From Methanosaeta sp. PtaB.Bin018 (GTDB lineage Archaea; Halobacteriota; Methanosarcinia; Methanotrichales; Methanotrichaceae), in the NCBI GenBank assembly GCA_002067755.1, contig MVQH01000078.1:1-36159 (forward strand): 36,159 nucleotides of DNA. Direction: 5' to 3'. Within the stretch, counting starts at the first letter, position 1, and each line of letters opens with the position of its first letter. The notes below the pieces were generated by a model. It was not told the DNA's origin, did no database searches, and saw only the letters and a list, made by a program, of their open reading frames with translations. This document shows, one piece after another, positions 1,464 to 4,665 of this stretch. The translations under genes were made by a program, and so were the position numbers.

Positions 1464-1925
1464 TCAAACTGAATGATAGCTTAGACTGACCGTCGGGTCG
1501 GTCAGGTCGAACCCCTGAACATCCAGCACCAAAGTTCCGTTGTATGTGGAGGAGAGGAACTCTAGACCTGGGGTGCAATTGATCTGGCTGAACTCATAAT
1601 TGCCAGGAATGTAGAAGACTGCATGATACTCATCATAATGGCCGTTTGCAGGAAAGTTCAGCACCCAACCTTGAGCATCGTCTTTTAGGAGAGACTCGCA
1701 AACAGCATAAAGCTGCCCGTTCTCTTCGTAGATGCGCTCAGAGGAGGTGTTCATAAATGGCAGTCCGGACACGTCATCGACATTGCCAACTATTAGCGTC
1801 TTTTTGTTGCTTGTATCATCTACGTATACGTTTAAAAATAGCTGCTTGCCCTCGCTAACGCCAGCGGAGGAGATCATGAGCAGCAGTGCAATGAGCAAGC
1901 CTGCAGGCCTGACGGTGATCGGCAT
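1464..1925 (-). CDS. Secreted paralogue of the sensor domain of the downstream membrane regulator
   Basis: The 153-residue product begins with a clear signal peptide (about residues 1-26, hydrophobic core GLLIALLLMISSAG). The mature part aligns along its whole length with the extracellular domain of the regulator at 3492-4607. Shared blocks are LFLNVYVDD/LILNVYLDN, QLYAVCESL/QLYALTDSL, a FxxDFR/YDEYHAVFYIP-like strand and LDVQGFDLTDP/LADVQGYEVHDP. It has no transmembrane anchor and no DNA-binding domain, so it should be a free exported version of the sensor. Two or three N-x-S/T sequons are present. It is the last gene of the leftward cluster of exported proteins. I do not recognise a named family and infer only a shared ligand or interaction with the regulator. 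Confidence 0.75.
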   Translation of the reverse strand: MPITVRPAGLLIALLLMISSAGVSEGKQLFLNVYVDDTSNKKTLIVGNVDDVSGLPFMNTSSERIYEENGQLYAVCESLLKDDAQGWVLNFPANGHYDEYHAVFYIPGNYEFSQINCTPGLEFLSSTYNGTLVLDVQGFDLTDPTVSLSYHSV

Positions 1926-1961
1926 TTGCGCCTCGATTGAGGTTGGAGTCGTGGCGTAAGC

Positions 1962-2597
1962 CTAGTGGCTCCGATCTCCAGCATTATTCTTCTCGTATCT
2001 GTGCATTGGGGGGTGCATATCCAGCAAAACAGCGTATCTCTCCGCCCTCTCTGTGCGATTCAGCTCTAGCTGGCCCCTGCCAACTATGCCGCCATCTGAG
2101 GATGAGATGACAAGTGTGATGCGGCCTGCGTTGACAGGCTCCTCGCTTACAAGTTCCGGGCTCGAGGCAAGCACATCAGCCCAGAGAGTAGTTGAGTTGT
2201 TGCCTGAGGGTGATATTGATATGTTGACGAGCGGATAGATGCTCCTGTCCAGCATCAAACTCCCTCGATAGGTAGTATTATAGGTAGTATTACATCTTTT
2301 TGTTCTGATGTCATCTCTTATCTCGTCCAGGCTCTTGTTTGAGGCCATTAGGTTTCTGACCTGCATAGGTTCGAGAGGACATAGGGCCTCCACATTAAGC
2401 CTCATGATATGAGACTCATTGCCCAATAGAGCAAATCCGTGACCACTCTCGAGTACCTCAATTGGCACACCCATGGGATGGCCGACCATTTGCTGGCCCA
2501 TCATTTGATCGGGCTGTGCAAGGCACATGCCAAAAAGGCATACGACAAATAAACCCGCCAGCCACATGCATGAGAGCCTTCTACAAACATCCATCAT
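1962..2597 (-). CDS. Exported protein of unknown function, rich in N-glycosylation sequons
   Basis: I chose the ATG at 2597 because it opens directly into a signal peptide (MMDVCRRLSC then a WLAGLFVVCLFGMCLAQ core); the longer open frame reaching 2840 adds an implausible hydrophilic lead. The mature protein of about 185 residues has a Met/Gln-rich start (QPDQMMGQQMVGHPMG). Next comes a segment resembling the heptad unit of the neighbouring sequon-repeat protein (MQVRNLMASNKSLDEIRDDI), then an NTTYNTTY tandem and a beta-rich tail with several N-x-S/T sites. No family is recognised. It lies between the sensor paralogue and the sequon-repeat protein on the same strand. Confidence 0.65.
   Translation of the reverse strand: MMDVCRRLSCMWLAGLFVVCLFGMCLAQPDQMMGQQMVGHPMGVPIEVLESGHGFALLGNESHIMRLNVEALCPLEPMQVRNLMASNKSLDEIRDDIRTKRCNTTYNTTYRGSLMLDRSIYPLVNISISPSGNNSTTLWADVLASSPELVSEEPVNAGRITLVISSSDGGIVGRGQLELNRTERAERYAVLLDMHPPMHRYEKNNAGDRSH
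2269..2292. repeat. 12-bp perfect tandem duplication inside a coding region
   Basis: The unit taggtagtatta occurs twice in a row. Read on the minus strand it encodes the doubled N-T-T-Y in the exported protein at 1962-2597, so it keeps the frame and doubles a glycosylation sequon. Confidence 0.8.
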
Positions 2598-2833
2598 TTT
2601 GAGCCCCGTCATCAAATGAATTCCCAAACTTAAAAGATTAATCGCCCAATAAGATAAGTGCTCTATTTGATGATGAATCCCAAAAAAACACCCATGACCC
2701 AAGGTCACCCATGTGGATGAAAATGGACCTTTGCGAGAACCATTTTCATACCAAGAGGATGAGTTAGGTCCTGCTATATCTCGAAGCAGACTTGACCTAC
2801 TCACCCATCTTCTGGTTAGGAGGGGATAAATCA

Positions 2834-3322
2834 TCACCAACGATCGGGTCTCAGGAGGTTGGGCCCACCATCGCGTTCACATCCAATAAACCTGGCCATT
2901 TCACGCAGTTGCAGCCTCTCTTTTTTCAGCTCGCCCAAGGTCATATTCTCTCTCGCTTGTATCCTCTTTTGCATCATGTCATCGATCTGAGCCTGTGTCA
3001 TATTGTTCAGTTCGTCCATCTTCTCTCTCTTCAGCTCCTTGATCTGAGCCAAAGTCATATTGTTAAGATCTTCCGCAGCCAGACCATCCATCATCAGCAG
3101 GAGCATCGGAGGCTCGCATCCCATCATGCAGCCTTCATGCCTCATATTTCGTAGCTCTCCCAGGGTCATGTTCTCCATCTCTTCCTGGGTCAGATTATTC
3201 ATCGAGAGCACCATACCATTATGCATTGCCCTGTGCGCGCCTCCATCGACAGGCCTCGATAATGCTGGTGCCGCGAGAAGGCAGACCATGACCAATGCAA
3301 TTGCAGCGTTCTTCTGTTTCAT
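2834..3322 (-). CDS. Exported protein with N-x-T sequons at 19-residue spacing
   Basis: The 162-residue product starts with a signal peptide (MKQKNAAIALVMVCLLAAPA, cleavage near ALS). The mature part is predicted to be helical, highly charged and methionine-rich. Asparagines in N-[ML]-T sequons fall at residues 43, 51, 88, 107 and 126; the last three are exactly 19 apart. Each begins a unit of the form NMT-x-[AG]-[QE]-[IL], as in NMTLAQIKELK, NMTQAQIDDMM and NMTLGELKKER. A central segment HEGCMMGCEPPM holds two cysteines. The pattern suggests a glycosylated coiled-coil or helical surface protein, but I recognise no named family. It shares strand and export signal with both neighbours in the cluster. 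Confidence 0.7.
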   Translation of the reverse strand: MKQKNAAIALVMVCLLAAPALSRPVDGGAHRAMHNGMVLSMNNLTQEEMENMTLGELRNMRHEGCMMGCEPPMLLLMMDGLAAEDLNNMTLAQIKELKREKMDELNNMTQAQIDDMMQKRIQARENMTLGELKKERLQLREMARFIGCERDGGPNLLRPDRW

Positions 3323-3491
3323 CTAAGATCGTACCTCACACTTGACTTGAATTTCAGCTCACTCCCTACCCGCTTACGGACGGCCCTACATATTTTGCCG
3401 CCCTGTGAACATGCCTGTGGTGCGAACGATACAAAAGGCTAGAGCAGAACGAACGATCTGGTATGCTAGCTTGGTCAATTTAAAAAAAGGT

Positions 3492-4607
3492 TCAAGAACG
3501 TTCTTTTCCAGACAAAAACCAATCAGAAAGTTCAATTATATTGGTCCTGCCATATTCCTTCTTGGTTACGAGCTTTCTCCTCTCAAGAGAGATCAAAATG
3601 CCAGTGAGGGACGATTTTGGTGTGCCAGTCTCATATCTGATCTCCGCTTGGGTCATTCTGCCACCATGATCGATCAGAGTCTTCAGCACTGCGCGCTCCC
3701 TTGCAGTTAGAGTCTGCATAACTGCTTCCATCTCGCTGCTGACCACAATCTCCCTCTTCACAGCCTCTCCATGAGTCCCTGCTGCCTCATGGGCTGAGGG
3801 CTCTGGTTTCAATTGCATATCCTCAGGGGGCTGATCCGAGGGGAGATATGGTTCCTGCTCCTGTGCAAAGTAGACTCCGTCATCGACCTGATCTGTTTCA
3901 ACAACCCCGTTTCCTTCCTCTGGAGGCGATGACGCTGCTGTTATGGCGTCTGCTACTTCAATAGCACTTTTACGAGACGCACTCTCGCGATGGGCCATGA
4001 AGACGATGAGAGCTGCACCCGCAAATAGGAGCGATGCGGCTGCTAAAATTAAAGCTAAATTGAGATAGTTACCTACGAACCCAGGTGGTGGTGGAAGCGG
4101 CATTGAGCCTTGATTTGTGAGGGGGTGCTGATATTCTACGGTGATGTTCGGGTCGTGTACCTCATACCCCTGCACATCAGCCAGCAGAGATTCGTTGGAC
4201 GCAGAGAGCAGATAGCTCAAGCCATTCGATGCATTTATCTTTCCAAGCCGCATGTCGCTCGGGAGGATGAAGGTGGTGCGAAAGTCTCCAAAAAAACCAC
4301 GGGCATCGAACCTCAATGTCCAGAGGTCTCCCTCCTTAGTGGTTAAACTATCGGTGAGGGCGTAGAGCTGGTTTGTCTCATTTTCGTAACGATATTGGGA
4401 GGAGTTTAGAAAAGACAGGCTGCTGATGTTCTCAGCATAGCCAGTTATCAGGGCCTTGCCAGCATTGTCCAGGTAGACATTCAATATTAGCCTTTGCCCA
4501 AATGCTGTGTCCTGCTCCTGGGCAGAGGCAGATGCGACTGCAAGTGCAAAAACCAATGAGACCAAGATTTGCCAATGCAGCATCCTTCTCGTGTGAGTCC
4601 ACCCCAT
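3492..4607 (-). CDS. Membrane-anchored winged-helix transcriptional regulator with extracellular sensor domain
   Basis: The order of parts, numbered from the chosen ATG, is as follows. A signal or N-terminal hydrophobic segment covers about 8-30. An outside domain of ~140 residues has several N-x-S/T sequons. A PLPPPPGF hinge precedes one transmembrane helix at about 180-204. An acidic linker leads to a C-terminal winged helix at about 295-371 (LTARERAVLKTLIDHGGRMTQAEI, then TPKSSLTGILISLERRKLVTK). This is a one-component signal transducer: a surface event would alter DNA binding directly, without a kinase. Such regulators recur in Methanosarcinales. The GTG at 4619 is an alternative start. 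Gene order suggests it controls the linked exported proteins; that is inference. Confidence 0.82.
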   Translation of the reverse strand: MGWTHTRRMLHWQILVSLVFALAVASASAQEQDTAFGQRLILNVYLDNAGKALITGYAENISSLSFLNSSQYRYENETNQLYALTDSLTTKEGDLWTLRFDARGFFGDFRTTFILPSDMRLGKINASNGLSYLLSASNESLLADVQGYEVHDPNITVEYQHPLTNQGSMPLPPPPGFVGNYLNLALILAAASLLFAGAALIVFMAHRESASRKSAIEVADAITAASSPPEEGNGVVETDQVDDGVYFAQEQEPYLPSDQPPEDMQLKPEPSAHEAAGTHGEAVKREIVVSSEMEAVMQTLTARERAVLKTLIDHGGRMTQAEIRYETGTPKSSLTGILISLERRKLVTKKEYGRTNIIELSDWFLSGKERS

Positions 4608-4665
4608 ACTTAATAGCACGTCTTAATGACTTAATCTATTTAAACAACACTCAAAATTACCATTG

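Follow-up and report, generated by a model that had tools for sequence, protein, structure and literature searches.

Why should a methanogen keep a membrane-bound transcription regulator and a secreted copy of that regulator's own sensor in one gene cluster? The question is raised by four genes of Methanosaeta sp. PtaB.Bin018, here called REG, P3, P4 and SOL (Table 1), in the window, that is, the whole stretch of 36,159 nt that was analyzed. The most probable answer in our view is that a surface-protein regulon is controlled by REG, a transmembrane one-component regulator that acts via the element CGTTC-N16-ATCGTTC, with P4 as its feedback partner or main output and SOL as a buffer of the signal. 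The shared promoter element and the genome-wide regulon were absent from the initial annotation of this DNA and were found in the follow-up analysis.

The regulator, its secreted paralogue and their neighbors

In REG a signal peptide is followed by a beta-rich outer domain and a single membrane helix, from which a disordered linker leads to a DUF7343 winged helix. Positive residues come after the hydrophobic helix (about residues 181-207), as judged from the sequence and the AlphaFold model, in which the winged helix (residues 290-366) is also modeled confidently. The helix-turn-helix part of REG passed the curated Pfam cut-off for DUF7343 (52.8 vs. 27.6 bits) as well as that of the IclR HTH model (25.4 vs. 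22 bits). DUF7343 was matched by 34 of 34 relatives, REG is the sole DUF7343 protein of the PtaB.Bin018 genome, and no part of REG is conserved as well as the winged helix, which is often 60-90% identical between genera. An Ost1-like fold suggested for the sensor by Foldseek (E 4e-4) was kept as a lead only, given the low TM and the high rmsd over a mixed alignment.

Table 1. Features of the REG cluster, with positions in the window.
Feature	Position	Strand	Basis or remark
SOL, soluble secreted protein paralogous to the outer domain of REG, encoded last in the cluster, 36 nt after P4	1464..1925	(-)	homology search
P4, exported, predicted beta-barrel with helical hairpin, constant REG partner	about 1962..2597	(-)	
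P3, exported protein with helical NMTLxEI repeats, many N-glycosylation sequons and much Met, first gene behind predicted operator	2834..3322	(-)	
Predicted REG operator CGTTC-N16-ATCGTTC, 18 nt between half-sites, upstream of P3	3424..3451	(-)	only exact match in the window
Extra half-site GATCGTTCGTTC overlapping upstream end of operator	3447..3458	(-)	conserved in Methanothrix loci
REG, single-pass membrane one-component regulator, 371 aa	3492..4607	(-)	kept in Methanotrichaceae and Methanophagales
Palindromic half-site pair GAACGTTC within last REG codons K-E-R-S-stop	3496..3503	(-)	most Methanothrix loci
REG winged helix DUF7343, residues about 290-362	3522..3740	(-)	PF24034 3.5e-14, above cut-off; AlphaFold model
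REG membrane helix, about residues 181-207	3987..4067	(-)	hydrophobic stretch; helix 181-216 in AlphaFold model
REG outer (sensor) domain, residues 36-163, beta-rich	4119..4502	(-)	AlphaFold pLDDT mostly 94-98; SOL homologous
Putative REG TATA box TTTAAATAG, without CGTTC half-sites	4636..4644	(-)	by eye, in the gap between nadE and REG

The free protein SOL had been described in the initial annotation as a match to the outside domain of the regulator that lacks the anchor and the DNA-binding part. Indeed, a search of the whole genome with REG returned two matches only, REG itself and SOL (E 2.2e-25, 37% identity), the latter confined to the REG outer domain (REG residues 27-166), and SOL consists of 153 aa with a signal peptide and without a membrane helix. 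On sequence grounds this similarity is far beyond chance and the two outer domains are homologous, which speaks against the unrelated folds that the initial annotation had named as a refutation. The two further exported proteins that had been noticed between them on the same strand, P3 and P4, both carry signal peptides.

When 102 outer domains were placed in a tree, those of SOL fell into two well-supported groups and one long branch, apart from the REGs of their own genomes; the tree is based on few columns, which leave one to three SOL origins indistinguishable, and a single origin followed by losses is also compatible with it. That SOL is a recent copy of the local REG was rejected, since the SOLs cluster together across genera, and we regard it as an old paralogue confined to Methanotrichaceae. 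The REG signature QLYAxTxxLTxK is partly missing in SOL, with LTxK lost, and a search of PDB sequences with SOL gave no match. SOL may be a carrier or a structural surface protein that shares only the fold with the sensor, or an accessory ligand-binding protein that delivers the ligand to REG, as an old paralogue with conserved features of its own and without LTxK would allow; however, SOL is almost always found directly behind P4, at the end of a REG-type cluster, and we consider this reading possible, if rather doubtful. The same position makes it probable that SOL and P4 are produced jointly and share their control. The earlier suggestion that the soluble domain could compete for, carry or present the ligand is a possible one; in the circuit that we favor, this soluble sensor copy from the same cluster would most likely damp the response by binding either the ligand of REG or P4.

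The order nadE-REG-P3-P4-SOL is found repeatedly across Methanotrichaceae, often with an oppositely oriented kae1 behind it, so that the genes are not scattered in relatives, a point which the initial annotation had proposed to check. P3 or SOL is missing from part of these clusters, at least nine of which have no SOL although the downstream DNA is present. Since several clusters do without it, SOL would not be essential to the circuit. Among named genomes, REG turned up in Methanothrix, Methanotrichaceae, Methanophagales (ANME-1) and unplaced Methanosarcinales. Nearly all REG loci of Methanophagales have P4 next, usually after a gap of 70-90 nt, and neither SOL nor P3 was found there. In a sample of 393 genomes of the phylum the sensor occurred in 45 and P4 in 46, nearly all in two families (f1 and f10), a co-occurrence that is confounded by phylogeny; a genome of another family (G369) has a P4-like gene after REG. 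The neighborhood of P4 and REG in Methanophagales, their shared two-family distribution and the P4-like neighbor in G369 together identify REG-P4 as the old core of the cluster, to which SOL and P3 are later, losable additions. The surface sensing unit that had been proposed from this DNA thus stands as a conserved gene cluster, but its center is REG with P4 and not REG with SOL.

The P4 model (mean pLDDT 82.5) shows a small beta-barrel and a helical hairpin, and its best solved match was the C-terminal barrel of fHbp (Foldseek, E about 1e-3 to 3e-3), a likeness that we read from the model as a resemblance of fold and not as evidence of kinship. N-glycosylation sequons are five times more frequent in P3 than in shuffles, and three to four times more frequent in P4, SOL and the outer part of REG. 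Membership of P3 in the CpxP/Spy family was unsupported, since P3 passed the cut-off of neither the LTxxQ nor the Metal_resist Pfam model (the latter with 16.6 bits for the P3 of the window vs. a cut-off of 29.2, and weak matches in 2 of 16 P3 members) and no CpxP/Spy-type protein was matched among PDB sequences. A second promoter-like stretch (CTTTTAAGTTTGGGAATTCA) upstream of P4 (window 2606-2680) is seen again in several Methanothrix loci.

The CGTTC-N16-ATCGTTC element

Comparison across loci revealed that GAACG/CGTTC half-sites form a conserved stretch in the gap that separates REG from the following gene. The half-sites of the predicted operator enclose a TATA box (CTTTTGTAT, about 3429-3437), and with up to 1 mismatch the chance expectation of the element is 0.09 in the whole window. 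Coding and predicted operator sequence overlap at the 3' end of REG (window 3492-3506, GAACGTTC). The element precedes the first exported gene after REG, be that P3 or P4; in the window the gaps between P3 and P4 and between P4 and SOL have no copy, and autoregulation of REG via the element was rejected, as none lies upstream of this gene either. At locus L083 (9137-9481) an internal deletion leaves about 21 P3 codons, and the element now stands directly before P4. P3-P4(-SOL) clusters that lie apart from REG keep the element (L062, L068, L088, L140, L142, L147, L148 and, in PtaB.Bin018, L136), and REG genes that stand alone (L097 and L098, for instance) have no element alongside. This implies that the element belongs to the targets and is not merely sequence adjacent to REG.

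All 37 Methanotrichaceae genomes contain exact copies of the element, 121 sites in total, compared with 2 for the reversed-pattern control. A single site was present in 24 related genomes without the REG sensor (families f2 and f3), and a sample of 120 genomes of the phylum contained 3 sites outside the two REG families, none of which resembles a TATA promoter. The exact site is absent in some REG-bearing genomes (G252 and about half of the sampled Methanophagales). Some exact sites, mainly those without a T-rich center (e.g., G017:C117, G036:C32 and several in Methanophagales), look like chance.

A different cytoplasmic regulator that Methanotrichaceae and Methanophagales share could also bind the element, which would make REG one of its neighbors that regulates something else; binding of REG to the element is predicted only, and scattered targets need not be those of the neighboring regulator. 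This explanation appears unlikely to us, given that REG is flanked by the element in two divergent lineages, that a variant with the same 18-nt spacing follows REG in a third (locus L137), that genomes without REG nearly lack the element and that the conservation of the REG winged helix fits a fixed DNA target.

Genes behind the element

A signal-peptide-like ORF follows 58 of the 74 examined sites, compared with 36 of 116 control genes of the same stretches, by a simple rule that counts membrane proteins too and with control genes that include regulon genes; most of the remaining sites precede a MacB-type ABC operon. PtaB.Bin018 has four exact sites, one in the window, two on contig C22 and one on C101. 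On C22, one site precedes an exported protein rich in Met and Cys, after which a second P4 comes, and the other a MacB-type ABC operon; the site on C101 precedes an exported protein of 200 aa. In the corresponding C22 locus (L136, 5310-10004 of G000:C22), which holds the second P4, the MacB-type ABC operon lies behind its own element together with a small HTH-like gene and an AbrB-like gene. Family-wide, as read from individual stretches of the genomes, the gene right behind a site encodes an exported repeat protein, a P3-like protein or an exported two-cluster ferredoxin, or it opens the ABC operon, and carboxypeptidase-regulatory-like proteins are often encoded by the second gene. The exported ferredoxin (signal peptide and two 4Fe-4S motifs) was seen behind the element at L200 (11791-12060), L214 and L236; an electron carrier outside the membrane would be unusual. 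Met/Cys-rich exported proteins with SMMDGK/KSMMGEDGKQ repeats and CxC motifs were seen behind it at L204, L207, L208, L213, L217, L229 and others. Since promoter-like sites in Methanophagales lie mainly at P4, the regulon appears to have been widened in Methanotrichaceae.

Such a gene content invites the explanation that the system answers soft-metal or thiol stress (e.g., copper) and that the regulon consists of metal-binding exported proteins and an exporter. The richness of exported regulon members in Met and Cys with CxC motifs, the Met-rich P3, the MacB-type ABC operon and the weak Metal_resist matches in P3 would agree with it, whereas these matches stay below the cut-off, the P4 of Methanophagales is not Met-rich and no Cys, His or Met is conserved across the aligned REG sensors, so that direct sensing of a metal by such residues was rejected. 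We therefore give a metal or thiol response little credence.

Proposed circuit and known systems

To arrive at a circuit we infer that REG binds the element, and likewise the direction of control, the signal and the roles of P4 and SOL. The outer domain of REG would read a signal at the cell surface, and the cytoplasmic winged helix would act directly on DNA. Its first targets would be the adjoining genes of the exported proteins P3, P4 and SOL, via the TATA-bracketing element, joined in Methanotrichaceae by several scattered operons of exported proteins and the MacB-type ABC transporter. In the quiet state REG may block the basal factors and be released upon the signal. Repression is somewhat likelier than activation because the half-sites bracket the TATA box; the upstream half-site arrays would also suit an activator. 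P4, a predicted secreted beta-barrel that would be under the control of REG, is likely the main output, the feedback ligand of the REG outer domain, or both. A further-reaching picture, a widespread archaeal response of the surface-stress type with one membrane regulator and a TATA-bracketing element, P4 as a secreted ligand and SOL closing an extracellular negative feedback, is offered tentatively and seems to us less probable than its opposite.

The initial annotation knew of no described system of this kind. Our search of the open-license literature on DUF7343, on regulators of Methanothrix and Methanophagales and on archaeal one-component systems of envelope stress likewise found no description of a REG-type system, nor of any regulator that controls surface proteins of Methanothrix or ANME-1; the claim has to be narrowed, though, since transmembrane transcription regulators (TTRs, e.g., ToxR, CadC, and TcpP), mostly single-pass, are a described class, as are co-component pairs with a lipocalin-like partner (PMC10269533). 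With a predicted DNA-binding domain (DUF7343) and at least one predicted transmembrane region REG is best read as a member of this class, and the element and regulon are consistent with a protein that would regulate transcription from the membrane on outside information. Like TTRs, REG combines an outer part, a single membrane helix and a cytoplasmic DNA-binding domain in one protein; unlike other TTRs, it uses a DUF7343 winged helix and has a family-wide predicted regulon with a fixed element. The domain order of ToxR is opposite to that of REG, in which the outer domain is N-terminal and the winged helix C-terminal.

In bacterial co-component systems (VtrA/VtrC, ToxR/ToxS) a regulator is encoded next to an exported partner, some of these partners being lipocalin-like barrels (PMC10269533). 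REG similarly adjoins the exported P4, a predicted beta-barrel (best Foldseek E 1.3e-3, fHbp barrel), but P4 is a predicted target gene of its regulator, its best solved match is fHbp and not VtrC, and the likeness to a lipocalin-like partner lies in the outline of the predicted fold. The nearest studied archaeal membrane-bound regulators are ArnR and ArnR1 of Sulfolobus, one-component HTH regulators of cell-surface structures (PMC6396743). Their layout is unlike that of REG, ArnR having its HTH at the N-terminus and two membrane helices at the C-terminus, besides a putative HAMP and sensor domain (PMC6396743), and no secreted sensor copy has been described for them. The predicted regulon of REG, with its exported proteins and the possible feedback of one of them on the sensor, resembles that of the Cpx envelope stress response with CpxP/Spy. 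Cpx is a two-component system, whereas REG is one-component, and P3 passes no Spy/CpxP-type Pfam model.

The defined element and regulon make the REG system testable. In dominant acetate-consuming methanogens, one sensor would tie together exported barrels, repeat proteins of a metal-like kind, an ABC exporter and a ferredoxin that is exported. If true, a regulated cluster that supplies a secreted copy of its regulator's sensor would be an unusual feedback design. In one Methanothrix genome (G004, locus L043, 6329-12039) three REG genes are arranged in tandem, with element-like half-sites behind at least the first two.
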